From: Opitutaceae bacterium
GTDB taxonomy: Bacteria > Verrucomicrobiota > Verrucomicrobiia > Opitutales > Opitutaceae
NCBI GenBank assembly: GCA_030648295.1
Contig: JAUSID010000204.1
Coordinates: forward strand, 1 to 35,046
Direction: 5' to 3'
Length of the DNA stretch: 35,046 bases
The position numbers and the translations under genes are program-made. Shown piece by piece: positions 1-13,989 of the stretch; within the stretch, counting starts at the first letter, position 1; each line of letters begins with the position of its first letter. The notes below the pieces were generated by a model that had not been told where the DNA came from, did not search any database, and saw only the letters and a list, made by a program, of their open reading frames with translations.

Positions 1-2058
1 GGGCTTGACCTTGAAATAGAACGACGACGTGCGGGCCGCCACCCGCAATCCGGGCACCTTGGACAACACGTTGAGCAACTCCTCGCTGATCCCGTCCGAA
101 AAATATTCGCTGTCCTTTTCGCTGCTGCGATTTTCGAACGCGAGCACGGCGATGGATTTCTGCTCCACGCGGGCGGCAGCGGCGGCCGGGTTGCGCGGCT
201 TGGGGGCCGGCGCGGCGGCCAGCATGCGCTGAAATTCAGGGGTCGCGCGAATTGGTTCGAAAACCGGATTGAGCCGCAGCGCGGCTTGCGGGGACGGATA
301 GACGGTTTTGAGCCGGGCAATCCGCTGCTCCGTCTCGAATTTCGCCGTCACCTCGGCGCCGTGCCCCAGCGCGATCCGCAGCAGAGCCGACGGCGCGGCG
401 CAGGACCAGAATTCAGCCTGCAGACTCTGGTTTTGTTCGAGCTGGCGCAGCAATGTCTCCGCTTCCGCCGTCTCACCCAATCGCGCCAGCGCGACGCCCT
501 TGTAAGCCAACGCCGCGCGGAGAGTGGGGTCCTCGGCGAGCAGCCGGTTGGCGACGGTGCGCGTGTTTTCCCATTCGGCGCGCGCCGCCTGCGGCCGGCC
601 GGCCAACTCATGCGCCAGCGCTAGCAACACCGCTTTCGGTCCGGTGAAATACGTGTCGTTCCACGCATCGCGCGGCGCCGCATTGAGCGCGGCGATGGCT
701 TTGTCCGGCTCACGCCGCCACAGCCAGACCTGGCTCATGACAAAGGCGCCGCGCGGTTCGAGCCGGAGCCACGTCGGCCAGCGTTCGAGGTCCGCCGCGG
801 CGGCGTCGAGGTCGCCGCGCCAGCACAGTTTCAGCAGGACACCGAAAGCGTGCGCGCGCCCGGTGCTCTTGACCGCCAGCGATTCGGCCAGCGCGGCCTC
901 CGCCTCCGCGTAGCGGCCAAACCACACCAACTGCGTTCCCTTGATCGACAGTGCCCGGGCATCCCCGCCGGGCAACGCGTTCGCGCGATCGAAAGCCACC
1001 ACGAGTTCGTTCGCCTTGCCCGCCGCTGCATACGCCAGCCCGAGCGCGCCCCACACGCCGCGATGGCCTGGCTGGCGTTCGCTGAGCGGTTCCAGAATTC
1101 GAATTGCCTCTTCTGCCGTCGCCCCGCCCACATCAGCCAGATAACTGGCATAGGCCACCTGCGCTTCGACGGAAGCGGGATCGAGTTTCCACGCGCGCTC
1201 CGCCTGCTTTTGCAAGGCGTCCTTTCGCGCGCGCGTGCGATCATAACCCAGCACCGACATCAGCCGCGAGACCTGGGCCTGTGCCGCCCAGACTTCGGCG
1301 TCGGTCGAGTCGAGACTTTCGGCCCGCTTGAGCAAATCCTCCGCGAGAAAAACGTTTTCGTGGTTCGACTCGTCGCCGTCCTCGAACAAAGTCCGCGCCT
1401 GCGCGACGAGTTTCCGCGCTTCCGACAGAGCCGGCTTTGCGTTTGACGTTGCGGCCTTTTCGACCGCCGTGCCAAATCGTGCTCCGAACATCCAGAACGC
1501 GAGCGCCGCGCAGGCCAGCCCACCGAGGATGGCCGGCCAGAGCCAGCGGCGGGATTTTTGTGGGACGGCGGCCGCCCTCAGCCGCAATGGCAATTCAGCG
1601 GCCGGGGGCGGCCGCGCTCCCACTCCGCCATTCAACAGCTTCTTGATCCGGTCGCAAAACGCCGGCCGCGTTTCCCCATCGCGGAGCCGCGTCCATTGCA
1701 CCTCGCGAAATTTCTCCGGCACGCGAGCCGTGGCATCCGCGGTGTCGTCGATCACGACGGGAACCAGGAAAGGCAGGTCGTCGGCCATGTCCTGCGTGCA
1801 GTCCACGGCCAGCTTCCACTCGCGGCGAAAGTAACCCTTCGCCCGCGCGTCGGTGTGGGCCGAGATGATCGGCACGAACAGCGCGCACTCCTTGATCTGC
1901 TTCCGGATTTTTTGATCCCACGCATCGCCGCCGCGCAGCTCGCTTTGATCGAACCAAACTTCGACGCCGTTTTGTCTCAACGTTTCACAAATGCGTTTGG
2001 CTGCCTCGGCATCCTGCGAAGCATAGGAGAGAAAGACGGCTTTGTGGTCGTCGTTCAT
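1..2058 (-). CDS. TIR - TM - TPR - TolB-like protein (gene A), C-terminus beyond window
   Basis: The frame is open from ATG at 2058 to the window edge (686 codons, no stop). Residues 1-140 are a TIR domain: AVFLSYASQD strand/loop, VEVWFD and a GYFRREWKLA motif whose E80 matches the catalytic Glu of TIR NADases. Residues 146-166 are encoded by a palindromic repeat. A membrane helix follows (about 172-192, WLWPAILGGLACAALAFW), then TPR-type helices (about 210-600). At the edge a TolB-like domain begins (KSIAVLAFENRSS, then EYFSDGISEELLN). More TPRs probably lie outside, as in the gene at 8177-11572. The ATG overlaps the stop of the small frame before it (ATGA) and has no good Shine-Dalgarno, so it is probably translated by coupling. 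The TIR should face the cytoplasm. NADase or signalling activity is an inference; no partner gene identifies a defence system. Confidence 0.9.
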   Translation of the reverse strand, partial: MNDDHKAVFLSYASQDAEAAKRICETLRQNGVEVWFDQSELRGGDAWDQKIRKQIKECALFVPIISAHTDARAKGYFRREWKLAVDCTQDMADDLPFLVPVVIDDTADATARVPEKFREVQWTRLRDGETRPAFCDRIKKLLNGGVGARPPPAAELPLRLRAAAVPQKSRRWLWPAILGGLACAALAFWMFGARFGTAVEKAATSNAKPALSEARKLVAQARTLFEDGDESNHENVFLAEDLLKRAESLDSTDAEVWAAQAQVSRLMSVLGYDRTRARKDALQKQAERAWKLDPASVEAQVAYASYLADVGGATAEEAIRILEPLSERQPGHRGVWGALGLAYAAAGKANELVVAFDRANALPGGDARALSIKGTQLVWFGRYAEAEAALAESLAVKSTGRAHAFGVLLKLCWRGDLDAAAADLERWPTWLRLEPRGAFVMSQVWLWRREPDKAIAALNAAPRDAWNDTYFTGPKAVLLALAHELAGRPQAARAEWENTRTVANRLLAEDPTLRAALAYKGVALARLGETAEAETLLRQLEQNQSLQAEFWSCAAPSALLRIALGHGAEVTAKFETEQRIARLKTVYPSPQAALRLNPVFEPIRATPEFQRMLAAAPAPKPRNPAAAAARVEQKSIAVLAFENRSSEKDSEYFSDGISEELLNVLSKVPGLRVAARTSSFYFKVKP
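1561..1622. repeat. Palindromic element inside gene A linker
   Basis: Two imperfect arms, 1561-1585 and 1598-1622, are inverted copies built on the core GCGGCCGCCC and flanked by TGGGA/TCCCA. The element is read in frame by gene A as residues 146-166, rich in Ala, Pro and Arg, exactly between TIR domain and membrane helix. The same family occurs at 10981-11050. Confidence 0.85.
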
Positions 2059-2186
2059 CGTTGAGACAAAGCGCGGCTTGTCCGCCGTAGGCTTGGCGAA
2101 GGTGGAAGCGCGTCGCAGATGCGCCGCGCGGCGTCCGCGTCCTGGGAGGCATAACTCAAGAACACTGCTTTGCTCGCGGAGCTCAT
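2055..2186 (-). pseudogene. Truncated TIR 5' fragment B (43 aa)
   Basis: ATG at 2186 opens a TIR start (KAVFLSYASQDADAARRICDA), cut after about 26 codons by a copy of the TCCGCCGTAGGCTTGGCGAA repeat. The frame then runs to TGA at 2057-2055, overlapping the ATG of gene A (ATGA). Its own start overlaps the stop of the fragment before it. GAGG lies 7 bases before the ATG. It cannot make a TIR fold. It is either a relic or a translated leader that delivers ribosomes to gene A. Confidence 0.75.
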
Positions 2187-2326
2187 GCGTTCGCCTCGGT
2201 CCATTGCCGACGTAGTCCTGCCTGCCGCGCCGAAGCCTTGGCGAAGGCGGGCGAGGCGTAGGAGAGGAAGACCGCGCCACCGGGCGCGGAACGCCCAACG
2301 TTTAACGCTGAACTCTTAACGCTCAA
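2183..2326 (-). pseudogene. Truncated TIR 5' fragment C (47 aa), TTG start
   Basis: Reading from TTG at 2326 (GGAGG, 8 bases, TTG) the frame runs through repeat sequence into GGAVFLSYAS, the first strand of a TIR domain. It is then broken by a repeat built on GCCTTCGCCAAGGCTTCGGC and stops in TGA at 2185-2183, overlapping the ATG of fragment B. The start arrangement is the same as in the full-length gene at 8177-11572. About 13 TIR codons remain. Confidence 0.7.
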
Positions 2327-2400
2327 GGGCCGGTCCTCCAGGATGCGATGCGCAGGTTCTTCACTTGGGATTTAAGCGTTAAAAGTTAAACGTTGAGCGT
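2301..2400 (-). repeat. Start-carrying repeat element, copy 1
   Basis: An AT-richer element with CTCAACGTTTAACT at its 5' side (minus strand), a CAAGTGA box, GGAGG at 2339-2335 and the TTG start of fragment C at 2326, followed by AGCGTTAA. Copy 2 at 11557-11636 shares all these parts in the same order and the same 8-base GGAGG-to-TTG spacing, although the sequence between is diverged. It interrupts a TIR start: nine codons (ATG at 2415) precede it and a TIR strand follows. Confidence 0.7.
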
Positions 2401-2415
2401 TTTTTCCCCGCTCAT
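2386..2415 (-). pseudogene. Nine-codon frame MSGEKTLNV coupled to gene D stop
   Basis: ATG at 2415 overlaps the TGA of the preceding TIR gene (2414-2412) as ATGA. The frame reads MSGEK, like the other TIR starts (MSxxxKAVF), but the repeat element then supplies TLNV and a TAA stop. It is the stub of a TIR start interrupted by the element; fragment C resumes on the other side. Confidence 0.55.
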
Positions 2416-4301
2416 TTTCCCGGTTCCTTGAGCAGCGTCTGAAACCGCGAATCGTCGCGCAGCTTGTCCCACAACGGGTCGAGCCGCAGCAGCGCCGCCG
2501 TGAGCGGCCAGCCGACGTTCCGGCCGACCGCCGCCGCGCGAAATTTTTCCAGCCACGGCAGCGCTTCGTCTGCGCGACCGAGGACCGCGTAGATGCGGGC
2601 TTCCGAACTGAACCAGGCCGTACGGTCGCTCCGCGACAGCTCCGCCGCCGTGCGCGCCTCCCGCAGCGCCTCGTTCGCCTGCCCCAGCCACGCGAGCAAT
2701 TCGCCCCGCATCAAGTGCAGGTCGCGGGCTTGCGGCGTGGCTTTCAAACGGGCGTCCACCACGGCGAGGCCCGCTTCCCACGCGAGGCGCGCGGCCTCCT
2801 TGCGTCCGGCCAGCGCGTGGGCGCGGCCCGTCCAGTAGGTCTTCGGCCCGGCAAACCAGTTGTCCTGAATGTAATCATCCGAAAACCGATCCAGCGTCTT
2901 CAACGTGGCCTCGGGCGTGCGCTGGCAGAGCTGCACCATCGCCGTGGTCCAAATCGTGCGCGGTTCGTTGCGCACCGCCGTCGGCCCGGAGGCCAGCATG
3001 CGCGCCGCCCCGTCCGCGTCGCCCTTCCACGTGAGCATCAGGATTGCGAGCATGGACTGCGAATTGGCGGAGGGCTGCGCCGCGACCGACTGCCGGATGC
3101 AGCGGTCCGCCTCCTCAAACCGGGCGCGATGAAAGAACAGCAGGAACTCCGTGTAACGCGCCAGCGCGGGGTTGCCGTCCGGCTGCGCGGCGACCCGCTC
3201 GTAGAGCGCCGCGGATTCGTCCACCCGATCCAAGCGGTCATAAATCCACGCGAGATTCCCGAGCGCGCCGGCGTGGTTGGGCTGGCGCGAGAGAATTTTT
3301 TTGAAGGTCGCCTCGGCGACCGCCGGATCCTCGAAGTCACGCTGCCAGCGGCCCAGTGCGAACTGCCCTTCCAGGGAATCGGGGTCAAGGCTCAAGGCGC
3401 GCTCCGCCTGGCTGCGCGCCGCGGCCGCGCGCGCTTGCGCGTGATCGAAGCCGCGGGACCTAAACGAAAAATTGAGCAGTGACGACACCGCCCAAATTTC
3501 CGCATCGTTCGGATCGAGCTGGAGGGCACGCTTGAGCAAACCCTCGGCCGCGGCGAAGTCCTCCGCCGTCGAGTCGTATTTGTCCAAACTCATGGCCCGC
3601 GCGCGGGCCGCGAGTTGCCGCGCTTCGGAGAGCGGTGCGGCGGCCAGGGCGGATTTCGCCGCGGCGCGGGCGGCAACGGTCTCGGCGGTGGCAAGCAGCC
3701 TTGCAATTTCCGCGGGACTGCGATGCGGACGGATCGCGAAAAATGCAGCGACAATCAGGATCGCTAACACGCCGAGCGCGGGCAGGAGCCAGATGCGCGG
3801 GGGCGGGCGCTGCGGTTGTAGGCCCGGCCAGTGGCCGGGCGCCCGGTCAGCCCCCGGGCCTATTATTTCGCCACCGAGCAATTTCACCACGCGGTCGGCC
3901 AGCGTCTCCGGCGTGTCCTTTACGTTGAGCCGCGTCCACTGCACCTCGCGAAACCGGTCGGGCACGCGCGCCGTCGCGTCGGAGGTGTCGTCGATCACGA
4001 CCGGAAAAAGGAACGGCGCGTCGTCCGCCATCAGGTGCGAACGGTCGACGGCGAGTTTCCACTCCAGCCGGAAGTAACCCTCGGCGCGGGCGTTGGTGTT
4101 CGCGGAGATCACCGGCACGAACAGCGCGCACTCCTTGATCTGCTTGCGAATCTTTTGATCCCACACATCGCCACCGCGCAGCTCGCTTTGATCGAACCAG
4201 ACCTCCACGCCGGCGGCGCGCAACGCATCGGCAATACGTCGCGCCGCTTCGGCGTCTTGCGATGCGTACGACAGGAAAACCGCTTTTCCCGAGATGCTCA
4301 T
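2412..4301 (-). CDS. TIR - TM - TPR protein (gene D, 629 aa)
   Basis: Residues 1-140 form a TIR domain (KAVFLSYASQD, VEVWFDQSELRGGD, GYFRLEWKLAVD with E80 as the putative catalytic Glu). Residues 147-161 come from an in-frame palindrome, followed by a membrane helix (about 170-191, LLPALGVLAILIVAAFF). The rest, about 200-620, is helical TPR sequence (repeats such as AVSSLLNFSFRS, ALGNLAWIYDRLDR) and ends DDSRFQTLLKEPGK. It lacks the TolB-like domain of its paralogues. It is very like the first 640 residues of the 1131-aa gene, which continues where this one stops. GGGAGG six bases before ATG 4301 supports the start. It follows the ATPase gene by 112 bp. Role: probably a membrane-anchored TIR effector or sensor; ligand unknown. 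Confidence 0.92.
   Translation of the reverse strand: MSISGKAVFLSYASQDAEAARRIADALRAAGVEVWFDQSELRGGDVWDQKIRKQIKECALFVPVISANTNARAEGYFRLEWKLAVDRSHLMADDAPFLFPVVIDDTSDATARVPDRFREVQWTRLNVKDTPETLADRVVKLLGGEIIGPGADRAPGHWPGLQPQRPPPRIWLLPALGVLAILIVAAFFAIRPHRSPAEIARLLATAETVAARAAAKSALAAAPLSEARQLAARARAMSLDKYDSTAEDFAAAEGLLKRALQLDPNDAEIWAVSSLLNFSFRSRGFDHAQARAAAARSQAERALSLDPDSLEGQFALGRWQRDFEDPAVAEATFKKILSRQPNHAGALGNLAWIYDRLDRVDESAALYERVAAQPDGNPALARYTEFLLFFHRARFEEADRCIRQSVAAQPSANSQSMLAILMLTWKGDADGAARMLASGPTAVRNEPRTIWTTAMVQLCQRTPEATLKTLDRFSDDYIQDNWFAGPKTYWTGRAHALAGRKEAARLAWEAGLAVVDARLKATPQARDLHLMRGELLAWLGQANEALREARTAAELSRSDRTAWFSSEARIYAVLGRADEALPWLEKFRAAAVGRNVGWPLTAALLRLDPLWDKLRDDSRFQTLLKEPGK
3819..3862. repeat. 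Palindromic element inside gene D linker
   Basis: An inverted repeat with ends TAGGCCCGG and CCGGGCCTA around a GC-rich centre. The sequence family differs from that at 1561-1622, yet it lies at the same protein position: it encodes residues 147-161 (IGPGADRAPGHWPGL) between TIR and membrane helix. Confidence 0.85.
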
Positions 4302-4413
4302 TGCGGCCCTCCCGTGGATTGGGCTGACTTCTGACCTCTGCTTGCCTCGCCATGGCTCCGCAGGAGCGACGGCGGGTCCTCTGCCCTCTGAACAGCCTGG
4401 TTCGCCCCGGTCG
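4302..4413. repeat. Short intergenic spacer with interspersed repeat
   Basis: The spacer between the ATPase stop and gene D holds the repeat CGCCATGGCTCCGCAGGAGCG around 4350-4370, with a small inverted core CTCCGCAGGAG. It ends in the Shine-Dalgarno of gene D. No terminator-like hairpin with a T-tract was seen, so read-through from the ATPase gene is possible. Confidence 0.5.
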
Positions 4414-5583
4414 TCATTCGATTTCCTTTTCCAACAATCGCAACGCCTCCGGCAACGCCACCACGCCGCGTTCGCCGTTGAACACGCTCTTGTTGACCTG
4501 CGCGATCAACAATCGCCGATCGGCACCGACGAGGTCGGCCGCCGCGTTGAAGCGATCGAATTCCTGCGATGCGGGGCTCGACGTGAGCTTCGACTCGATC
4601 GCCCAATGCCGCCGGCCCAGCTTGAACACGAGATCGACTTCGTAGCCGTCGGACGTGCGGAAATAGTGCGGCATCACCGTGGCGCCGCGCGCCGCGAGTG
4701 TTTCAACGATCTGGCCAATGACAAAGCCTTCCCAACTCGCACCGACCCACGGCTCGTGCAGCAACTCGTCGGTAGTGCGCACCCCGAGCAACGCGTGCAG
4801 CAACCCCGTGTCGCGCCAATAGACCCGGGGTGAGCGCACCAGCCGTTTCTTCAGGTTCGGCAGCCACGGGGGCAGCCGGCGAATCAGAAACGCGCCTTCC
4901 AGAAAATCGAGATAGCTGTTCACCGTGTGATAGGTGAGGCCCAGGCTTTGGCCGACCTGGCTTGCGTTCCAAATCTGGCCGTGCACGGCCGCGGTCATGC
5001 GTAACAAGCGTTCGGTTACGGCGGGTTTGGCCGGCAATCCCCACCGGGGTAGGTCGCGTTGCGCGAGGAGCGACAGATAATCGAGCTGCCACTGGGGAAA
5101 GCGTTTGGGCTCCGGCGCACCGCCTTCCGGAAAACCGCCGCGCAGCCACGCTTCGCGCAGCGGCGTGTCGTCGAGCTCGGCGACCAGCAAGGGCGCCATT
5201 TCCAGAACGGCCAGCCGGCCCGCGAGTGATTCCGAAATCTGTCGAATGAGCGCCGGCGAAACGGAGCCCAGCAGGAGAAACCGGCCGGAGCGCCGGCGGT
5301 CGGCATCGATGGCGCCCCGCAGCCGCGGAAACACTTCGGGCCATTCTTGCGCCTCATCGAGCACGACCAGGCGGCGCTGCGCCATCAGGGCATCCCACTG
5401 CAGATCGAGCCGCACGCGCTCGGCCGGTTGCTCGAGGTCGAAATACTCGGTCGAAAGCGCCCGCGCCAGCGTCGTCTTGCCCGCCTGACGCGGACCGACG
5501 AGGGCCACGGCGGGATAGTCTGCGAGGCGAGCGCGCACGACACGGGTGATGAGCCGGGAAATCATTTGCAGATTAGAAATCAT
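4414..5583 (-). CDS. AAA-family ATPase with DUF4143 C-terminal domain (389 aa)
   Basis: Residues 8-180 are a P-loop ATPase of the AAA_14 type: Walker A GPRQAGKTT (about 31-39), Walker B RLVVLDEAQ, and sensor strand FLLLGSVS. The C-terminal half matches the DUF4143 family: winged-helix-like LGLTYHTVNSYLDFLEGAFLIRRL, then the nuclease-like core GYEVDLVFKLGRRHWAIESKL with D, E and K in PD-(D/E)xK order. The length is normal. AGGATAGAAA before ATG 5583 is a fair ribosome site; a second ATG seven codons on (MISRL) is possible. The start overlaps the end of TIR relic E by 11 bases and lies inside a 34-bp palindrome. The family's biochemical role is poorly known. It is the only non-TIR gene in the array. 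Confidence 0.92.
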   Translation of the reverse strand: MISNLQMISRLITRVVRARLADYPAVALVGPRQAGKTTLARALSTEYFDLEQPAERVRLDLQWDALMAQRRLVVLDEAQEWPEVFPRLRGAIDADRRRSGRFLLLGSVSPALIRQISESLAGRLAVLEMAPLLVAELDDTPLREAWLRGGFPEGGAPEPKRFPQWQLDYLSLLAQRDLPRWGLPAKPAVTERLLRMTAAVHGQIWNASQVGQSLGLTYHTVNSYLDFLEGAFLIRRLPPWLPNLKKRLVRSPRVYWRDTGLLHALLGVRTTDELLHEPWVGASWEGFVIGQIVETLAARGATVMPHYFRTSDGYEVDLVFKLGRRHWAIESKLTSSPASQEFDRFNAAADLVGADRRLLIAQVNKSVFNGERGVVALPEALRLLEKEIE

Positions 5584-5598
5584 TTTCTATCCTGCAAA
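5565..5598. promoter_or_regulatory. 34-bp AT-rich palindrome across the ATPase start codon
   Basis: The arms (TTTGCAGATTAGAAA and TTTCTATCCTGCAAA, 13 of 15 pairs matching) flank TCAT, the complement of the ATG. In mRNA it would fold the start codon into the loop. On DNA it could be an autoregulatory operator. Its AT-richness is unlike the surroundings. The function is inferred. Confidence 0.5.
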
Positions 5599-5671
5599 CA
5601 AGCCTCCGCCGCCGGAAACTGCGGACGGCACCCTTCGCGCCGCGCCTGGGTGTTCGCCGAGATGATCGGCA

Positions 5672-5690
5672 TTCTGCCGAAACGGCAGAA
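5672..5690. repeat. 19-bp palindrome in TIR relic E
   Basis: TTCTGCCG-AAA-CGGCAGAA, perfect 8-bp arms. It replaces the LFV codons of the TIR motif ECALFVPIIS and shares its ends with the palindrome at 5730-5747. Confidence 0.85.
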
Positions 5691-5729
5691 CGCGCACTCT
5701 TTAATGTGCTTCCGGATCTTCGCATCCCA

Positions 5730-5747
5730 TTCTGCTGGCCAGCAGAA
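5730..5747. repeat. 18-bp perfect palindrome in TIR relic E
   Basis: TTCTGCTGGCCAGCAGAA is fully self-complementary. It stands in place of the DA codons in RGGDAWDAK. With 5672-5690 it defines a tiny family with TTCTGC ends. Confidence 0.85.
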
Positions 5748-5785
5748 CCGCCGCGGAGCCCGTTCGACGCAGAACCCGAAACCCA

Positions 5786-5857
5786 AAACCCTGGCCGCCT
5801 TTGGCGCCGCCGCAGGCGGGTAAACCCTGGCCGCCTTTGGCGCCGCCGGAGGCGGGC
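5786..5857. repeat. Two tandem 36-bp units (CCTGGCCGCCTTTGGCGCC type)
   Basis: Two 36-bp units differing by about one base, each with the self-complementary core GGCGCC between GCCGCCT-like arms. A third copy lies at 17927-17963 in the same context, beside AACCCAAAACCC. They are part of the repeat that interrupts TIR relic E. Confidence 0.85.
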
Positions 5858-6000
5858 AAGCGCAGAACCCGAAACTGCGCGCGTTGCGCGCGAGAACCAC
5901 ACTTCGACGCCAGTGGCGCGCAATGCGTCGCAAATGCGTCGCGCGGCGTCCGCGTCTTGCGACGCGTAGCTGAGGAAGACGGCCTTGTTTTCCGCGGCGC

Positions 6001-6216
6001 TCATTTCGAAACCGGGATTCCCAACCCGAAACCCAAAACCCGTAACCCGGAACTGCGCGCGAAGCGCGCATCCCACGCGTCACCGCCGTGCAGCTCATTT
6101 TGATCGAACCACACTTCGAGGCCGCAACTGCGCAACGCGCTCACGATACGCCGCGCGGCCTCCGTGTCTTCGCGGGCGTAGCTCAGAAAAACGGCTTTGT
6201 TTTCCGCGGCGCTCAC
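6001..6216 (-). pseudogene. Truncated TIR fragment F (71 aa), GTG start
   Basis: The GTG at 6216 overlaps the TGA of the full-length gene before it (GTGA). About 51 codons are TIR (KAVFLSYAREDTEAARR, LEVWFDQNELHGGDAWDAR). The frame then enters the GGGTTT-type repeat, read as LRVLGFGLGIPVSK, and ends in TGA overlapping the ATG of relic E (ATGA). It lacks the GYFRLEWK strand, so it has no putative catalytic Glu. It is a relic or a coupled leader peptide. Confidence 0.75.
6006..6075. repeat. GGGTTT-type composite repeat after fragment F
   Basis: On the minus strand it reads GCGCGCTTCGCGCGC, then GGGTTACGGGTTTTGGGTTT and ATCCCGGTTTCGAA. The same order (GC hairpin, GGGTTT words, ATCCGAAATCC words) is seen at 11720-11880, 13368-13455 and 17845-18003, and more degraded at 5766-5890. 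Confidence 0.75.
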
Positions 6217-8180
6217 TTTTCAAACCCGAGTTTTTTCAGCCACTCAGGGTAATACGGATTCGCGATCATGATGTCATCGGCGCCCGCTTTGAGAAAGAGC
6301 ACCCGGCCTTCGTGATCGGCGATGGCTTTGTTCATCCAGACGTTTGCCTGCTCGTTGTCATTCAGTGCGTCGTAGACCCTCGAGATCGTATACGCGGGAA
6401 CATAGTTCTGCCGCGCCTTGCTCAATAGTTGCTGGAGCACTTTTTGCGCCTCGGCGCGCCTTCCCGCCCGGCCATACAGGCTGCCGAGTTGTCCGAGCGT
6501 CTGCGGCGGGGACTCGAACCGGCAGGCCTCTTCCAACTGAGTAATTGCTTCGGCGGGGAGTCCCTTGCGGAAAAGCGACTGGGCCACCACCTCGTGCGCA
6601 TTGAAATAATTGGGGGCCATCGCGAGAGTCTGCCGGCCGGTCTGGATTGCGGCGTCGAAATCGTGGGCGAAGAATTGCACCCACGCCAATATCACCCCGG
6701 CATTCACCGAAAGCGGATCAAGTTGCCGCGCCTTCGCGGCGATCACCCGGGACTCCGAATGCCGGGACATCGCACCCAGGAAAAGTGCATAGTACATGTG
6801 AGCCGATGCGTTGACGGGATCCAGCGCCAAGGCCCGTTTGTATTCACGCTCCGCCGCGGAGTAATCGCGATCCACATAGACGTGCAGGGCCGCCTGCGAC
6901 ATATGCGCGTCGGCCAGCATGTCGTCGAGCTGCAACGCCTTTGCGACGGCTTCGCGGAATTGAGGCGTGATGCTGTCCGGGGCCACATACGCAAAGTAGC
7001 GGACCAAACTGTAAGCGGAGGCCAGGCCTGCGTAGGCCTCCGCGTAGCCCGGGTGCATGGACAATGCCTTCTGGTAATGCGAAATCGCGAGCTTCAGTTC
7101 CGACTCGGTGTATTTCTCCGCGTGAAAGCGTCCTTTCAGGACTTCCTTGTAGGCTTCGATGTTATCCGTGTGTCGTTTGGCAGAACGCTGCGTCGCTTCG
7201 CCGGTCAGCGTGATTTTCAGCTTCGTCACGATCGCCCGAGCGATGTCGTCTTGAATGACGAAGATGTTGGTCATGTCCCGGTCGTAAGTTTCCGACCACA
7301 GATGGTAGCCGTCGGCGACGTTGATGAGTTGTGCGGTGATCCGAAGCTGGTTGCCGGTCTTGCGCACGCTGCCCTCGAGCACCGTTTTCACGTGGAGCAG
7401 CTCGCCGATTTTCTTCACGTCTTCCTTCCGATCCTTGAACACAAACGAGGAGGTGCGCGCCGGCACGCGGAGCCCGGGCACCTTCGCGAGCGAATTCAGG
7501 ATTTCCTCCGTGATGCCGTCGCTCAGGTATTCATTTTCCTTGTCTCCGCTCATGTTGACGAACGGCAGCACGGCGATCGATTTCGGCTCCGAATCTTTCG
7601 CGGCGGGGCGAAAGAAGTAGGCGGCTAACCCGACCACGACGATGGCGAGAGCAACCCCGGATTTGACCAGCGACGGGAATTTCGTGCGAACCGGGGAAGT
7701 CGCTTGAACCGACGCCGCTTTTGCGGCTGCCGCAGTCGCGTGGCGCGGAGCGGTGAGAAGCCGCTGCACCTGTGCGACAAATTCCGGCGTCGGCAGCGCT
7801 CCGGGCAGCCGCATCCATTGCACGCGCAAAAACTCCGGCGGGACGACGGCGCCGGTCTCGCGGGTGTCGTCGATCACCACGGGCGCGATGAACGGCACGC
7901 CCTCGGCGAGCAAGTGCGTCTGGTCGACGGCGAGTTTCCATTCCAACCGAAAATACCCTTTCGCCCGCGCGTCGGTGTGCTGCGAGATGATCGGCACGAA
8001 GAGCGTGCATGCGTCGATCTGCTTTCGAATCTTCGCGTCCCACGCATCGCCGCCGCGCAGCTCCGACTCATCGAACCACACCTCCACTCCGGCCGCGCGC
8101 AATGCCTCCGCGATGCGCCGCGCCGCAGCGATGTCCTCACGGGCGTAGCTAAGGAAGACGGCTTTGCCGGCAACGCTCAT
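6213..8180 (-). CDS. TIR - TM - TolB-like - TPR protein (gene G, 655 aa)
   Basis: TIR 1-140 (KAVFLSYARED, VEVWFDESELRGGDAWDAK, GYFRLEWKLAVD with E80). A palindrome-free linker follows, a membrane helix at 173-191 (SGVALAIVVVGLAAYFF), then a TolB-like domain at 200-330 (KSIAVLPFVNMSGDKENEYLSDG; VLEGSVRKTGNQLRI; QDDIARAIVTKL). At least six TPR units follow (about 350-640; HPGYAEAYAGLASAYS, DPVNASAHMYYALFL, YFNAHEVVAQSLF). The TolB-like/TPR pair is common in bacterial signalling proteins with cyclase or winged-helix output domains; here TIR takes the output position. The ATG at 8180 overlaps the preceding stop (ATGA), with AAGGAG about 14 bases upstream. This is the one full-length TIR gene with an undisturbed linker and start, so possibly the least altered copy. 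Confidence 0.93.
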   Translation of the reverse strand: MSVAGKAVFLSYAREDIAAARRIAEALRAAGVEVWFDESELRGGDAWDAKIRKQIDACTLFVPIISQHTDARAKGYFRLEWKLAVDQTHLLAEGVPFIAPVVIDDTRETGAVVPPEFLRVQWMRLPGALPTPEFVAQVQRLLTAPRHATAAAAKAASVQATSPVRTKFPSLVKSGVALAIVVVGLAAYFFRPAAKDSEPKSIAVLPFVNMSGDKENEYLSDGITEEILNSLAKVPGLRVPARTSSFVFKDRKEDVKKIGELLHVKTVLEGSVRKTGNQLRITAQLINVADGYHLWSETYDRDMTNIFVIQDDIARAIVTKLKITLTGEATQRSAKRHTDNIEAYKEVLKGRFHAEKYTESELKLAISHYQKALSMHPGYAEAYAGLASAYSLVRYFAYVAPDSITPQFREAVAKALQLDDMLADAHMSQAALHVYVDRDYSAAEREYKRALALDPVNASAHMYYALFLGAMSRHSESRVIAAKARQLDPLSVNAGVILAWVQFFAHDFDAAIQTGRQTLAMAPNYFNAHEVVAQSLFRKGLPAEAITQLEEACRFESPPQTLGQLGSLYGRAGRRAEAQKVLQQLLSKARQNYVPAYTISRVYDALNDNEQANVWMNKAIADHEGRVLFLKAGADDIMIANPYYPEWLKKLGFEK

Positions 8181-11100
8181 TTTTTCGTGCTGGGCTCCTT
8201 CATGAGGTGCGCCAGTGTTTCGCGCCCATTATCGTATTCGGCGCGGCAGCCCAGCTTCGCGATGAGCTGGTTGAATTCCTCTGTGTGGCGCCAGGGATCC
8301 CACATGGAGTCCCAATAAAGCCAGCGTCGCGGCACGCGGGGCGTCGCTTCGAGATAAGGCAGCGCTTCCCCAAAACGCCCCAATGCACCGAGGACAAATC
8401 CCCGTTGGTAGCTAGGGCCTGGCAATTTCTTCAGCACTTCCGCGGCGAATGCGGTCGCTTCCGCCTCCAGTCCGGCCTTCCGGAGGACCCAAATCGCGCA
8501 AGCGTCGGCGTGCCGTCGCGGTGTCTGTTCGAGTCGGGCGCGCACCAGCCGGGCGGTCGCCACCGCCTCATCTTTCCGGCCGAGTTCATAGAGCGCGCGG
8601 GCCCGCGTGCCCAGGTTTGGAACGAAAGGATCCGGTCGCAAGGCGATGACGCGGTCCGACTGCTTGATGGCTTCGGTGAAGCGGCCCGCATAGGTCAGGA
8701 TCTCACTATTCAAAGCGAGATGCATCGGCCACAGCGGATCGAGACGTGCGGCATCCTGGATTTCGCGCAGTGCGTCATCCAGCCGGCCTTGCGTCAGCCG
8801 GAAAACGGAGCGCCAGCCAAACATGCCCGCATGGTTCGGATTTCGGGCAACGGCGAGTTGGTATTGCGCTTCCGCGTCGGCATCGCGGCCTTCGAGCATG
8901 AAAATGTAGGCCAGTAATGAATATCCCGACACCAACAGCGGATCGAGTGCGACGGATCGTTCGGCCGCTGCCCGCCCTCGTTGGATATCAGCGGCGACTT
9001 CGGCAGAACTGGCACCGTCCTGCAGTTGGTAGGTCGCGCGCATGACGTAGACCTCTGCCACCCCCGCATAGGCCAGTGCAAATCCGGGGTCCTGCGTAAT
9101 CGCATCCTTGAAAGCCCGCTCCGCGTTGAGATACGCGCTGCTCTCGCGCAACCGCACATAATGGCGGCCCTCGAGAACCAGGGCGTGGGCATGGGAATTA
9201 ACGGGTTTGGCGACGGGCGCTCCGTCGCCGAGCTGAAGCTGCAGCTTCTGGGCGACGTCACGGGCGATCCTGTCCTGCAACGCGAAGATATCCTTCAGCT
9301 CCTCTTCGTAGGTATCGCTCCAAATCTGGGTGCCGTTGTCGGTGCGCGTCAGTCGGGCTCGGATCTGCACGCGCGATCCCGCTCTGCGCACGCTGCCGTC
9401 GACGAAGTGGCCGACGCCGAGCTTTTCGCCGATTTCCGCGGGGCTGGGATTCTTGCCCTTGAGCGAAAGGGCGGAAGTCCAGCCGGCGACCTGCAAGCCC
9501 GGCACTTTTCCCAGCACGTTAAGCAGCTCCTCGCTGATGCCGTCGGAAAAATATTCCGTTTCCCGATCGTCGCTGCGATTGGCGAAGGGAAGGACCGCGA
9601 TGGCCTTTTGATCCCTCGTAGTGCCTGCCGGTCCGACTTTCTCCGGCTCGTTGAACAGCGACTGAAATCGCGGATCGTCCTGCAGGGGATCCCAAGTGGG
9701 GCTGATGCGCAGGAACGGCCGTGTCACAACGACGGGCTCCTTGGTCGCGGTGGCCAGCAGCGCGAACACTTTGTCGCGATTGCCGAGCTCGAGCGCGGCT
9801 GTGGCGGCCCAGTAACAATCGTTCGCGGAAAGCCCGAGTTCCTCCGCAGTGACCAACAGCCGGCGCGCCTCGGCGTGCTCGCCCAGATGGGCGAGCAGAC
9901 AGGCTTTCCACATGAGCAGTCGCACGTGATTCGGCTGAGCGGCGAGCCGGCCCTCGATTAATTGCAGTGCGGCCCGCCACTCGACCGCCGCGGCCTGCGA
10001 ACGTCCCGCCAAGCGATGCGCCTGGCCCATGAGAAACCCCTTCGGGCCGTCGAACACCGCTTCGAGATAGTCCCGCGGCATCGCTTTCAACGCGTCGATT
10101 TCCTTGTCGGGTTCGCGCGAACACCACCACGTTTGCGAGGCGATGAACGCCGCGTAGTCTTCACGCAGATATTCGACCGGCACCTTGGCCAGGGCTTCGC
10201 GTGCCCGCGCGACATCGCCGCGATAGCGCAGCAATTGATTTGCTTTGGAAATTGGCGCAGAGCCCCGCGGCTTCAGTCGGATCGCCGCATCAACGGCCTT
10301 CTCCGCTTCATCCATCCGGCCAAGCTGCGCGAGAGCGGCTGACTCATATTGGAGCGCCAACGGGTCACCACCCGGCAACGCTGCGGCGCGACGGAAGCAT
10401 TCGAGGCTTTCTTCCACGCGCCCACGCGAACGCGCGGAAAAAACGGTCCCGGCCCGCAACGTGTAGCCCAAGGCCCGCCACACGCGCTTGTCGGCCGGTC
10501 TCTCCTCGAGCAAGCTGCGCAGCATTCGCTCAGCTTCGGGATAGGTGGCGTCGTCCAGACGGTAGAAATAGGCCAGGGCATAGCGTGCCTCGAACGAATC
10601 GGGAGCGAGGCGGATGGCGCGATTAGCGGCATCACCGGCCTGCGCAATACGCTCCTTCGAACGATCAAACGTGCGAAAGACGAAATACGATCCGACCCGT
10701 GAAAAGATCGCCCAGATTTCCGCGTCGTTCGGATCGACCGCGATGGCTTGTTTGCAGAACTGTTCGGCGAGATTGAGATTCTCCCGCGGGGGCGCTTCGT
10801 CCTGATCGAACAACGCATCGGCCTTTGCCGCGAGCGCCCGGGCTTCGGAGAGTGGCGCGATTGCGCCGGATTTCGAGCTGCCAGCGACAGGTGCGCCCGC
10901 TTTTTTCCACGGTTGCCAGAGGGCGAATGCCACTCCCGCTATGAGGGTCGCCGCCGCCACGATGCGCCAGGGGTGCCTTTCACTTGGGACCGCGGCCGCC
11001 CTCGGCCGCTCCGTGTCTGATGCGGACGAGGGCGGCCGCGATCCCACTTGACCGTCGAGCAGTGCTTTCACTCGCGTGCAGAACGCGGCACTCGCTTCGC

Positions 11101-11572
11101 CGCCCGGCTGCTCGGAGCCCTGAGCCTGTCGAAGGGGCAGCCGCGTCCACTGCACCGCGCAAAACGAATCCGGCACGTCGGCGTGCGCCTCGCGCGTGTC
11201 GTCGATGCACACCGGCACGAGAAACGCCTTCGATTTCCCAATCAGTTCCGTCCGCCGATCCGCCAGCCGCCACTCCAGCCGAAAATACCCTTCGAGCCGC
11301 GCCTGCGTGTTCGCCGAGATGATCGGCACGAAGAGCGCGCACTCCTTGATCTGCTTGCGGATGTTCGAGTCCCAGGAATCCCCGCCGCGCAGCTCCGACT
11401 CGTCGAACCACACTTCGACGCCGGCCGCGCGCAGCGCCTCCGCGATACGACGCGCGGCGGCGGCGTCTTCGCGGGCGTAACTGAGGAAAACAGCACGGCC
11501 GCCGCCGGAACGCTCAACGCTCAACCGGTTCGACGGGCTCACGGCCCCCGGCACTGGACGCTCAACGCTCAA
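8177..11572 (-). CDS. TIR - TM - TPR - TolB-like - TPR protein (gene H, 1131 aa)
   Basis: The start is TTG 11572, with GGAGG eight bases upstream inside a repeat element; TTG 11524 is an alternative. Residues 1-24 are repeat-encoded and read LSVER twice. TIR spans 25-165 (RAVFLSYARED, GYFRLEWRLAD with E100) and contains a repeat-derived insert LRQAQGS. Residues 175-197 come from a palindrome; membrane helix about 200-219 (WRIVAAATLIAGVAFALW). A TPR block to about 640 ends DDPRFQSLFNEPEK, just as gene D ends. A TolB-like domain (about 660-790, KAIAVLPFANRSD, YFSDGISEELLN) and a second TPR block follow. The protein looks like a D-type protein fused to the TolB/TPR half of G. Its stop overlaps the next start (ATGA). 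Confidence 0.93.
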   Translation of the reverse strand: MSVERPVPGAVSPSNRLSVERSGGGRAVFLSYAREDAAAARRIAEALRAAGVEVWFDESELRGGDSWDSNIRKQIKECALFVPIISANTQARLEGYFRLEWRLADRRTELIGKSKAFLVPVCIDDTREAHADVPDSFCAVQWTRLPLRQAQGSEQPGGEASAAFCTRVKALLDGQVGSRPPSSASDTERPRAAAVPSERHPWRIVAAATLIAGVAFALWQPWKKAGAPVAGSSKSGAIAPLSEARALAAKADALFDQDEAPPRENLNLAEQFCKQAIAVDPNDAEIWAIFSRVGSYFVFRTFDRSKERIAQAGDAANRAIRLAPDSFEARYALAYFYRLDDATYPEAERMLRSLLEERPADKRVWRALGYTLRAGTVFSARSRGRVEESLECFRRAAALPGGDPLALQYESAALAQLGRMDEAEKAVDAAIRLKPRGSAPISKANQLLRYRGDVARAREALAKVPVEYLREDYAAFIASQTWWCSREPDKEIDALKAMPRDYLEAVFDGPKGFLMGQAHRLAGRSQAAAVEWRAALQLIEGRLAAQPNHVRLLMWKACLLAHLGEHAEARRLLVTAEELGLSANDCYWAATAALELGNRDKVFALLATATKEPVVVTRPFLRISPTWDPLQDDPRFQSLFNEPEKVGPAGTTRDQKAIAVLPFANRSDDRETEYFSDGISEELLNVLGKVPGLQVAGWTSALSLKGKNPSPAEIGEKLGVGHFVDGSVRRAGSRVQIRARLTRTDNGTQIWSDTYEEELKDIFALQDRIARDVAQKLQLQLGDGAPVAKPVNSHAHALVLEGRHYVRLRESSAYLNAERAFKDAITQDPGFALAYAGVAEVYVMRATYQLQDGASSAEVAADIQRGRAAAERSVALDPLLVSGYSLLAYIFMLEGRDADAEAQYQLAVARNPNHAGMFGWRSVFRLTQGRLDDALREIQDAARLDPLWPMHLALNSEILTYAGRFTEAIKQSDRVIALRPDPFVPNLGTRARALYELGRKDEAVATARLVRARLEQTPRRHADACAIWVLRKAGLEAEATAFAAEVLKKLPGPSYQRGFVLGALGRFGEALPYLEATPRVPRRWLYWDSMWDPWRHTEEFNQLIAKLGCRAEYDNGRETLAHLMKEPSTKK
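10981..11050. repeat. Palindromic element inside gene H linker
   Basis: Arms at 10981-11004 and 11027-11050 are inverted copies (CGCGGCCGCCCTCG core, TGGGA ends), about 21 of 24 bases matching. It is in frame with gene H and encodes about residues 175-197, after the TIR domain and before the membrane helix. Same family as 1561-1622. Confidence 0.88.
11115..11137. repeat. CCCTGAGCCTGTCGAAGGG repeat within gene H TIR domain
   Basis: A copy of a small interspersed repeat also seen at 14085-14105 and in diverged pairs at 19652-19695 and 24708-24745. It is read in frame as LRQAQGS, an insert absent from the three paralogous TIR domains. Confidence 0.8.
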
Positions 11573-11636
11573 GTGATGGACCTCCGAGTTCTGAAGCAGG
11601 GGTTGGTCACTTGAAGGTCATGAGTTAAACGTTGAG
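11557..11636 (-). promoter_or_regulatory. Start-carrying repeat element, copy 2
   Basis: On the minus strand it reads CTCAACGTTTAACTC, then CAAGTGA (11613-11607), GGAGG (11585-11581) and TCACTTGAGCGTTGAG with the TTG start of gene H at 11572. CAAGTGA and TCACTTG form a stem that holds the TTG, and AACCCC can pair with part of the GGAGGT, so the start could be masked unless ribosomes arrive from upstream. Copy 1 (2301-2400) has the same parts and spacing but a weaker stem. Confidence 0.65.
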
Positions 11637-11718
11637 AGAGTTGATCGTTCGGGCGAAGCACGCCTGCGTCCTGCGAGACGGAGCTGAGGAAAACTGCTTT
11701 GGACGTGACGCCGCTCAT
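11569..11718 (-). pseudogene. Truncated TIR 5' fragment I (49 aa)
   Basis: ATG at 11718 reads SKAVFLSSVSQDAG, 19 TIR-like codons, then enters the start-carrying repeat. It stops at TGA 11571-11569, overlapping the TTG of gene H (TTGA). Its ATG overlaps the stop of the frame before (ATGA). If translated, the ribosome would pass through and open the stem that masks the gene H start. Confidence 0.7.
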
Positions 11719-11924
11719 TGCGGATTTCGGATTACCTGCCCTCCGACCTGTCCGCCGTAGGCTTGGCGAAGGTGGAAGGCTTGGCGAAGGAGGGCGGATT
11801 GCGGATTGATCCAACCCGAAACCCAGAACCAGAACCTGCGCGCGCAGCACGCCAATCGCGCACGCGACGCGACGAAAAGTGAACGCGAAGCGCCTGTGCT
11901 AATTCCGACGATCAATCGAGACAC
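11715..11924 (-). other. Repeat-derived 69-codon frame at the head of the TIR array
   Basis: From GTG 11924 the frame stays open through about 170 bp of composite repeat (GC hairpin, GGGTTTCGGGTT words, two TTGGCGAAGG units, ATCCGAAATCCGCAAT) and ends in TGA overlapping the ATG of fragment I. No Shine-Dalgarno is visible before the GTG and the peptide has no recognised fold, so it may be fortuitous. It is listed because it continues the ATGA chain. Confidence 0.35.
11720..11880. repeat. GGGTTT-type composite repeat with TCCGCC/TTGGCGAAGG units
   Basis: Plus strand order: ATTTCGGATT, TCCGCCGTAGGCTTGGCGAA followed by a second TTGGCGAAGG unit, GCGGATTGCGGATTGATCC, AACCCGAAACCC, GCGCGCGCAG. The TCCGCCGTAGGCTTGGCGAA unit recurs in fragment B near 2080-2105. 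Confidence 0.7.
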
Positions 11925-12102
11925 GGGGTGAAGGGGAATGCAGGAGACAGACCCGGAACGCGAAGCGTGAAACGCCAGGCGCGCCGGGATTAGTCGCCGG
12001 AGGGGTGAGCCGAGGTGAGCAACATTCCAGCGGCGGCCGGCGCGAGCGAGCTAAAACAAATCTGGCCTTGCCTCCGGACGGCGCATCGCACGGATTCCGC
12101 GG
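11925..12102. other. Intergenic region between TIR array and PepSY pair
   Basis: The 178-bp divergent region presumably holds promoters for both directions. I could not identify convincing -35/-10 boxes. CAGGAGACAGACCC at about 11941-11954 faintly recalls a B12 box, but no cobalamin-riboswitch core is present. Confidence 0.3.
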
Positions 12103-12756
12103 GTGGAAACAAACGTCGCCCCTGCCCCGGCCCGGATGCCGCCGGGAACACTGCCGTCCGATTTTTCCCGCGTTGTCCGCCGCGTGCACATGTATCTGGG
12201 TCTGTTCCTCGCGCCCTGGATGCTGATGTATGCGGCGAGCACGCTCGTCATGACGCACCGGCATACCGTCGCGACGTTTTACCCGACCAGGGCGCCCGCC
12301 ATGGTGGTGGAACGCGAGCTGGATTACTCGCGCGAGTTTCCCGCGAACGCGACGCCCGACCAGATGGGCAAACAAATCCTGGATGATCTCGGGCTGACCG
12401 GCACGCATCGGGTAACGGGCGGCACGGGCGGAAAACCACTTCAGATCGATCGGCAGCAGGCGCTTGGTTCCCGCCGGATCACGTTTGATCAAAAGACCGG
12501 TCGGATCGCGGTCCAACGCGAAAAGTTCCGCGGCTCCACGTTCCTCGAGCGGATGCACCGGCGGCGCGGTTTCCAGCAACCGTACGCGGTCGACGACGCG
12601 TGGGGCTTTTCGGTGGACCTGGCGATGCTCACGATGGTGGTGTGGGCGCTCTCGGGTTTGTGGTTGTGGTGGGAACTGCGGGCCACGCGGCTGGGCGGAG
12701 CGCTCTGCCTTGGGGCCGGCATCGTGTTGTTCGCGGTTTTCATGGCCTTGATTTGA
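12103..12756 (+). CDS. PepSY-like membrane protein 1 (217 aa)
   Basis: A small membrane protein with one helix near the N-terminus (HMYLGLFLAPWMLMYAAST, about 29-48), a soluble central PepSY-like region of about 110 residues, and two C-terminal helices (LAMLTMVVWALSGLWLWW and LGGALCLGAGIVLFAVFMALI). The layout matches PepSY-associated membrane proteins, often found near TonB-dependent siderophore receptors. GTG 12103 is the listed start; ATG 12136 is equally plausible and neither has a clear Shine-Dalgarno. It is a tandem paralogue of the next gene: both share a YLGLxLxPWxLMYxxS helix and RRGFQQP/RGGFEQP. A thiol-free periplasmic domain with iron-related function is a guess. Confidence 0.8.
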   Translation: METNVAPAPARMPPGTLPSDFSRVVRRVHMYLGLFLAPWMLMYAASTLVMTHRHTVATFYPTRAPAMVVERELDYSREFPANATPDQMGKQILDDLGLTGTHRVTGGTGGKPLQIDRQQALGSRRITFDQKTGRIAVQREKFRGSTFLERMHRRRGFQQPYAVDDAWGFSVDLAMLTMVVWALSGLWLWWELRATRLGGALCLGAGIVLFAVFMALI

Positions 12757-12763
12757 ACGCACC

Positions 12764-13360
12764 ATGCCCATGATCACCTTCGACCGTCTGAACCGCCGCA
12801 CGCATTTGTATCTCGGGCTGATCCTCGTGCCCTGGGTCCTGATGTATGGATTGAGCTCGCTGATCATAAGTCATCAGTCGTGGTTCCGCTCCGAGACGCC
12901 GCCGCCGTGGCAGCCGTTGTTCGAGCGACCGTATCAACGCGCCATCCCGGCGGACGGCGACGTCCGTGATGTCGCCCGCGCGATCCTGCGTGAGAACAAC
13001 CTCGACGGCGCCTTCTACGTACAGCGGCCAAATCCCGGCGAACTGCGGATCATGCGCCAGACATTTTTCGACATCACGCGCGTGGTGTATACGATCGACG
13101 AGGGAAAACTTCGCGCCGACCGGCAGCAGGTCGCCTGGCATCAGGTCCTCGTGCGGCTGCATTTCCGCGGCGGGTTCGAACAGCCCCACTTTCTCAACCA
13201 GCTTTGGGGATTCGTGGTGGATCTCACCTGCGTGGCCATCCTCCTCTGGATCGCCACCGGTCTCACCATGTGGTGGCGGCTCGCCCGGCTGCGGATTTCC
13301 GGATCGATCGCGTTGGGCGCCGGGCTCGCGTCCTTTCTGCTGCTGGTTTGGAAACTGTAG
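12764..13360 (+). CDS. PepSY-like membrane protein 2 (198 aa)
   Basis: It starts 7 bp after the previous stop (ATG 12764), so the two are surely cotranscribed. Helix about 12-33 (YLGLILVPWVLMYGLSSLII), a central region (DVARAILRENNLDGAF, VYTIDEGKLRADRQQV) with the PepSY-like alpha/beta pattern, then two C-terminal helices (VDLTCVAILLWIATGLTMWW, SIALGAGLASFLLLVWKL). It is homologous to its neighbour throughout. The two may form a heterodimer in the inner membrane. No TonB receptor is adjacent in the window, so the usual iron-uptake partner is missing here. Confidence 0.82.
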   Translation: MPMITFDRLNRRTHLYLGLILVPWVLMYGLSSLIISHQSWFRSETPPPWQPLFERPYQRAIPADGDVRDVARAILRENNLDGAFYVQRPNPGELRIMRQTFFDITRVVYTIDEGKLRADRQQVAWHQVLVRLHFRGGFEQPHFLNQLWGFVVDLTCVAILLWIATGLTMWWRLARLRISGSIALGAGLASFLLLVWKL

Positions 13361-13367
13361 CCCGCGA

Positions 13368-13455
13368 GGCGGATTTCGGATTGCGGATTGGCCAAACCGG
13401 AAACCGGAAGCCGGAAGCCGCGCGTGTCGCGCTGTGCGACATGCGCGCGTTCGCC
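13368..13455. repeat. GGATTTCGG / CCGGAAACCGG repeat after the PepSY pair
   Basis: Plus strand: GCGGATTTCGGATTGCGGATT, AACCGGAAACCGGAAGCCGG, then GCGCGTGTCGCGC and GCGACATGCGCGC. It has the same order of parts as the other GGGTTT-type composites and starts within 10 bp of the PepSY stop. Confidence 0.65.
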
Positions 13456-13457
13456 CA

Positions 13458-13745
13458 TCACTTCGCGCGCGCTTCGGCGGGATCCGTTTTACCCGTGGCT
13501 GCGCGACCGACCGCACCCTCCTTCAGCATTCGAGCCCACGTTTCCCGCGCGACCCGGTACTCCTGCGCGCAACCGAATTGGACCATCAATCGCTCGTTCA
13601 CTTTGTCGACACCGCGGCCCCGAGCTTCGCCCTTGTGTCGCGCGCGAGCTTGTATTCCGCCATGCACCCAAGCTTCACCATCAGCTCGCGGAATTGCGTC
13701 GTGTTGCGCGCCGGCTCTCAAAAACGCGCGGCCGCGCGCTCGGTG
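13458..13745 (-). pseudogene. Decayed small reading frame with a duplicated motif
   Basis: The terminal frame (stop at 13458) reads ERLMVQFGCAQEYRVARETWARML. About 110 bp upstream a second frame reads FRELMVKLGCMAEYKLARDTRAKL, clearly the same motif repeated. The halves lie in different frames, so one frameshift separates them. I do not recognise the family. No start with a ribosome site was found. It may instead be a short intact protein from an internal start (13721, 87 aa). Confidence 0.4.
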
Positions 13746-13879
13746 CCGGCAGGGGAGTCCGGCGCGGGCAGAATCCTACAGGGCGCAACCCGCACGCCAG
13801 CCGAAAAAATACATTTTCCGCCGCGGCCGGAACTGCGGGGCGCATCTCCCGTTTGGCGGCGCCATCGGTTCTGGAGTGG

Positions 13880-13898
13880 CACGGGCGTCTCGCCCGTG
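13880..13898. repeat. Palindrome CACGGGCG-TCT-CGCCCGTG
   Basis: Perfect 8-bp arms with a 3-base loop, in a gene-free stretch; a REP-like unit. Confidence 0.8.
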
Positions 13899-13989
13899 AT
13901 CTTTCCGTGGCATGGCGAAATCCGGCTTCGAGATCATCGAACTCGACGTGAACGGCGACCGCGTGCCGGCGGCCAAGGCGACGGAGTGA

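Follow-up and report, generated by a model that had tools for sequence, protein, structure and literature searches.

Why should broken copies of genes be strung together as neatly as whole ones? The stretch of DNA analysed here (the window, positions 1-35046 of contig C45 in genome G000 of an uncultured Opitutaceae-like bacterium, which has 9.12 Mb in 294 contigs) raises this question at its left end. There, the minus strand of positions 1-11924 encodes four long proteins with a TIR_2 domain and TPR repeats and, among their genes, an AAA_14/DUF4143 ATPase; six further frames are 5' pieces of TIR genes. The stop of one frame often overlaps the start of the next by four bases, a distance written -4 below. 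The 5' pieces, each read in the TIR frame, we call stubs. A sequence-only reading had made of them translated leaders that hand ribosomes along the array. We think it probable that the answer is plainer, namely translational coupling of the ordinary kind in a TIR array that recombines, where starts copied with their overlaps leave 5' stubs behind.

Some members of the genus have a greatly enlarged TIR family. Matches to the TIR N-terminus number 31 in G000, 33 in G017, 61 in G025 and 95 in G003. Six other relatives, counted alongside, have 6 to 11 each. Our survey sample consisted of 115 partly overlapping stretches (1.09 Mb) from ten genomes of the genus. Of the 191 TIR N-termini in it, 133 were intact, another 9 were intact except that an end cut them, 35 had a short TIR match (some of these in long open reading frames, ORFs) and 14 were intermediate. 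Two relatives, both placed in the window's genus, matter most in what follows. A stretch of G003 matches SXSC01000316.1, from an Opitutaceae bacterium metagenome-assembled genome (MAG), at 100% identity over 8001 bases, and a stretch of G025 matches CANJIU010000075.1, from an Opitutae bacterium MAG, at 100% identity over 10001 bases.

Coupling is best considered between intact genes. In a mechanically defined ORF set, starts at -4 make up 15 of 29 cases where a TIR gene follows a TIR gene, 4 of 34 where another gene follows a TIR gene, 6 of 38 where a TIR gene follows another gene, and 15 of 111 other pairs. The first proportion against the last gives a Fisher p of 3.8e-5, a value to be read with caution, as duplication enlarges the arrays and the TIR pairs do not count as independent. 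With a profile-based set, 18 of the 42 starts lying at most 400 bases from the stop of an intact TIR gene are at -4, and near-identical bases are found at -4 junctions across G000, G003 and G025 (L041 7643, L085 13005, L115 3886). Coupling of intact TIR genes would thus be ordinary in kind, because -4 is the commonest same-strand distance in prokaryotes, while its frequency appears unusual. Two papers (PMC10666635, PMC6728339) give that distance as the commonest, tell that reinitiation requires close spacing, and note that short gene overlaps are enriched for subunits of complexes. A tandem, same-strand TIR array with -4 overlaps between intact members, as the earlier reading described it, was borne out, and it recurs in relatives. 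In the window, same-strand -4 overlaps are found at 11572>8180, an intact pair, and at 8180>6216 and 4301>2415, where an intact gene precedes a stub.

What would travel between genes is suggested by the second line of evidence. On contig C26 of G003 (L087), three genes with different starts of their own are each interrupted after SYAS, at the same codon, by a block of 104 bases. In order, it holds a dispersed repeat of 31 bases, a leader of the same length that ends in GAGGAGGTGACGC, and the start of a TIR gene from ATG to SYAS. There are four copies of it, one gene having two in a row. Compared without gaps, these agree at 61-62 of 62 positions over repeat and leader and at 40-42 of 42 over the start, whereas the stub starts that precede them are alike at 24-33 of 45 positions and the flanks before those at 34-55 of 155. 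Over the 100 bases after the block, 82-86 are alike among the three genes, and 27-29 when they are compared with the copy that is followed directly by the second block. The three genes are thus paralogues, but by these counts the block is more alike than its surroundings. Each copy yields a stub of 35 or 36 codons that ends in the ATGA of the block, and all four are at -4. One insertion of the block can, to judge from the bases, give stub and overlap in a single step, and the register would be inherited because stub plus overlap is itself the repeated block.

Less similar relatives of the block exist elsewhere. A stub in G025 is 71% alike over 103 bases, and positions 2018-2102 of the window, at the 2186>2058 junction, are 69% alike over positions 5-103 of the block (E 6.6e-5); the start part of the block alone has a 98% copy at G003 C173. 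The repeat of the block also follows SYAS in the window's stub 2326 and in one of G025; a further G025 stub has it after SY. At those three stubs the distance from SYAS to the next ATG is 65, 62 and 53 bases (hand count), which is equivalent to -4 in every case.

Put together, these observations suggest the following course of events. The window would hold one tandem array, among several, of a TIR-TPR family particular to the lineage, whose intact members may often be coupled by a four-base stop/start overlap, as is usual in bacteria. The first ~15 codons, nearly identical among the genes, would recombine with one another, and this, along with insertion of short dispersed repeats, would remodel the arrays. 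A gene start and its overlap would then form a module, a copy of which may land on another gene and leave the upstream remnant as a 5' stub; with the break at the same codon each time, the copy would retain the register automatically. In-register stubs might be tolerated since they leave coupling uninterrupted, although such a filter is a guess. Recombination in the conserved first codons, copying start and overlap together, seems the simplest common cause. We infer that the copying was its work, that the window's stubs have the same origin, and that coupling operates in the cell.

A bolder form of this idea has the arrays spreading a small start module (repeat, leader, and ATG to SYAS) from gene to gene, each same-codon copy coupling the receiving TIR gene to a new stub peptide and so rewiring its translation start in one step. 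We hold this to be possible, though rather unlikely. If start modules do move, a large immune-type family would have a simple route for altering translation while most of the protein stays unchanged, and the broken copies would be traces or parts of that route. Strings of ATGA overlaps across pseudogenes can descend from one copied junction, and are not necessarily independent evidence of function.

Several points weigh against copying as the whole account. Among candidates scored in 27 genomes of the genus (the best 33 of 65 in G003), the block occurs at 99-100% in C26 only; near-identity is confined to that contig, and the 69-71% likeness seen elsewhere is largely that of a shared repeat and a shared TIR start. 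The excess of in-register stubs described below is larger than chance alone would give, and copying accounts for it only in part. Start types, by contrast, tell in favour of copying. MSAAENK-like starts are found in 11 of 16 coupled genes and in 6 of 126 others, and on the TIR-domain tree start type and -4 coupling are both scattered, with 15 changes each, so that start type seems to separate from the TIR domain; the pattern, however, was defined after looking, and the tree is weak.

That tree was quickly made, 74 of its 139 inner branches being open. Coupling as the mark of an old clade of downstream partner genes found no support on it, the tree needing 15 changes for 16 tips at -4.

To follow the register through the window itself, the reader needs the frames of the array, given here in the order in which the minus strand reads.

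11715..11924, minus strand: 69-codon ORF ending in ATGA at 11718; looks like repeat sequence, with a repeat at 11753-11773; probably no gene.
11569..11718, minus strand: TIR 5' stub, broken after QDAG, ending in TTGA at 11572; no Pfam match.
8177..11572, minus strand: TIR_2-TPR gene, 1131 amino acids (aa); TIR_2 76.4 bits (cut-off 28); TTG start uncertain.
6213..8180, minus strand: TIR_2 gene with TPR, 655 aa; start overlaps the preceding stop (ATGA).
6001..6216, minus strand: TIR 5' stub, 71 aa, starting at GTGA and ending in ATGA at 6004; TIR_2 43.8 bits.
5573..6004, minus strand: TIR 5' stub of 143 codons, interrupted first after VWF and a second time by a short palindrome-like insert.
4414..5583, minus strand: AAA_14/DUF4143 ATPase, in mid-array on the same strand; DUF4143 139.6 bits, AAA_14 74.6 bits, PADLOC PDC-S01 287.9 bits.
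2412..4301, minus strand: TIR_2-TPR gene, 629 aa (ORF and Pfam match).
2386..2415, minus strand: TIR start of 9 codons (MSGEKTLNV, stop), from ORF reading.
2183..2326, minus strand: TIR 5' stub, broken after SYAS by the dispersed repeat PAFAKASARQAG, ending in ATGA at 2186; TTG start doubtful.
2055..2186, minus strand: TIR 5' stub, broken after DAL by the repeat family of stub 2326, ending in ATGA at 2058.
1..2058, minus strand: TIR_2-TPR gene running off the contig end (ORF and Pfam match).

The eight overlaps named in the sequence-only reading (11718, 11572, 8180, 6216, 6004, 2415, 2186 and 2058) are all present. Its statement that every boundary is in register is wrong: -4 holds at 7 of the 10 boundaries from 11718 to 2058, that is, at 11718>11572, 11572>8180, 8180>6216 (GTGA), 6216>6004, 4301>2415, 2326>2186 and 2186>2058. 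The 6004 stub overlaps the ATPase start at 5583 by 11 bases, its TIR frame ending at 5573, and the ATGA there closes another frame. A gap of 112 bases lies between the ATPase and the 4301 gene, so the latter is not coupled to it, and a gap of 59 bases follows the 9-codon stub at 2415>2326. In three of the named links, moreover, the frame or the start is questionable: the ORF that ends at 11718 is repeat-like, and the TTG starts at 11572 (within a repeat-like TTGAGCG) and 2326 lie in repeat-like sequence. Prediction of promoter-like sites in 1-12500 (0, against 1.4 in shuffles) and of terminator-like sites (16, against 15.1) was uninformative on operon breaks, and Rfam gave no match at gathering score over 1-14000.

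The sequences that break the stubs are not peculiar to TIR genes. The first repeat, of about 30 bases with core GCCTTCGCCAAGGCTTCGGCG and often ending GGCAGG, has 40 sites in G000 at up to 2 mismatches, three of them in the window (2083-2103, 2228-2248 and 11753-11773) and 37 elsewhere. Of 20 stretches fetched around it, at least 10 show it nested in another repeat (tgcgggcgagaccc...ggcaggctgcccgcgctccc). The recurrent insertion site may reflect the likeness of the TIR bases GCAGGAC to the repeat end GGCAGG, which we mention as a lead only. A second repeat (GGGTTTTGGGTTTCGGGTT...AATCCGCAATCCGAA) has at least 62 matches in G000 (the best 40 of 270 candidates scored); it was located at L041 9516-9600, in L043, in the window and on many G000 contigs. 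Several of its copies are stop-free in all frames of one orientation, and in several places of these arrays it ends right at a TIR ATG. The third, with ends like AACGCTCAACGTTTAAC and TTGAGCGTTAAACGTT, sits inside the first codons of TIR copies, where it supplies TTG codons; its sites are window 2290-2401, C5, C77, C90, C198, C218 and C281, and, by eye, 11510-11640. The spacers tested are therefore genome-wide repeats and not leaders particular to TIR genes. Like the REP-kind palindromic repeats treated in PMC3733652, they are short, dispersed, partly palindromic and present in many copies, a likeness of form.

We then ask how often a stub is in register with the TIR start that follows. Twenty junctions with a TIR start at most 250 bases after a TIR 5' stub were assembled by hand: 12 from G000, 5 from G003 (four being copies of the one block), 2 from G025 and 1 from G017. 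The 2415 stub lacks the SYAS motif and was counted since the earlier reading names it. Left out were stubs with over 250 bases between their motif and the next TIR start (e.g. L041 413, L041 13126, L103 8836, L107 2136, L087 4464), stubs with no following TIR start in the fetched stretch, the 6004>ATPase boundary, and two pattern matches with one mismatch each in G012 and G015. Thirteen of the 20 are at -4, or 10 of 17 if the four-copy block is counted once. The seven others are window 2415; C18 9154, 9355 and 12909; C198 10425; G025 L094 564; and G003 L085 9089. Among them C18 9355 is an in-frame fusion, and at G025 L094 564 the stop lies 3 bases upstream of the start.

Where the overlap frame is open, 10 of 13 junctions are in register where one third would be expected (p=0.0016, binomial, counts by hand). 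Collapsing homologous junctions leaves 7 of 10 (p=0.02), and the commonest spacer alone, AATCCG, gives 4 of 7 (p=0.17). The stub register thus exceeds chance modestly. A register beyond chance, as originally claimed, stands for intact pairs and in part for stubs, with a third or so of the stub junctions (7 of 20) falling elsewhere; comparison of related loci divides in the same manner, stubs and overlaps recurring at -4 across four genomes at 13 junctions and not at the remaining seven. The argument that repeat insertions keep the frames open more than expected is weak, and open frames carry little weight, because several spacers are free of stops in all three frames.

How do the other accounts fare with these numbers? 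Were the stubs functional leaders, with ribosomes ending at ATGA and reinitiating on the next TIR gene, selection might keep the register, and the 10 of 13 open-frame junctions would follow. Chains at -4 on both sides of a stub are in keeping with this (8180>6216>6004 in the window, 621>1442>1540>4878>8291 in G025 L094), as is the 2055..2186 region, which is 77% alike to C198 in G000: the junction there differs by one 3-base gap, yet both are at -4. Seven junctions off -4 speak against it, however. At C18 9355, C18 12909 and C198 10425 the stub does not stop at the next start and continues beyond it, either fused or in a different frame; 2415 reaches its stop after 9 codons, and the excess shrinks once homology or the main spacer is taken into account. 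Shine-Dalgarno-like matches at -4 starts, in small numbers, occur after 1 of 6 stubs against 8 of 18 intact genes. This last signal says little in the lineage because, at TIR starts uncoupled to a TIR gene, such matches (at least 4 bases) occur at 25 of 157, below the 23% of random positions, a rarity that hints at another mode of translation start. With the chain broken at three places in the window, seven junctions off register and genome-wide repeats as spacers, we regard it as unlikely that truncated starts passing ribosomes along are the main explanation.

Plain decay, with register left to chance, would need only that starts often read ATGA and that spacers be stop-free, one third of the junctions then falling at -4. 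Indeed, xTGA is the reading at 98 of the 189 TIR N-termini for which a start was called, several spacers are stop-free in all frames, and the main spacer does not depart clearly from one third. We nevertheless find this distinctly improbable, for it leaves the 15 of 29 intact pairs and the repeated block of G003 unexplained, and the overall stub register is above one third. It is scarcely credible that repeats mis-joined gene pieces during assembly: the genome is fragmented in its 294 contigs and the window ends inside a TIR gene, but similar stubs with the same repeat after SYAS are present in G003 and G025, which are separate records. Ordinary coupling remodelled by the copying of starts is the account that we retain.

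As for known systems, the array resembles termination-reinitiation coupling at -4 in its same-strand genes and its ATGA or GTGA overlaps, and differs in that paralogues of one family are chained and that some links are 5' stubs with repeats. No matching description of TIR expansions in Verrucomicrobia or Opitutus relatives, of such repeats, or of coupled pseudogenes was recognised among the titles and abstract openings that the literature searches listed, or in the passages of PMC7159879. No full-length PADLOC effector match was found in the four TIR ORFs scanned, the TIR models covering the TIR part only, and NCBIfam defence models stayed below cut-off in the five array ORFs scanned, those for retron-TIR and Thoeris far under it. 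With bacterial TIR effectors the four long ORFs share a TIR_2 domain above the Pfam gathering cut-off of 28 bits (73.4 to 82.5 bits), and the TIR domain of the 4301 gene has 12 sequence relatives with solved structures (best E 9.5e-6), including AbTIR 8g83 and TIR-APAZ chains. The stubs 2326, 2186 and 11718 have no Pfam TIR_2 match at E 0.01.

Beyond the TIR domain, residues 192-589 of the 655-aa protein have a counterpart, 32% alike, in the second half of the 1131-aa protein. The stretch they have in common is weakly FlgO-like (17.5 bits in the 655-aa gene, under a cut-off of 22.6) and also like part of a HilA/CadC-type regulator, all below cut-off; we take it to be of the kind labelled TolB-like. 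Finally, stub 6004, which matches TIR_2 at 30.7 bits over its first 48 residues, contains a 19-base palindrome-like insert, TTCTGCCGTTTCGGCAGAA on the minus strand (window 5672-5690), that replaces a few bases of the TIR copy.

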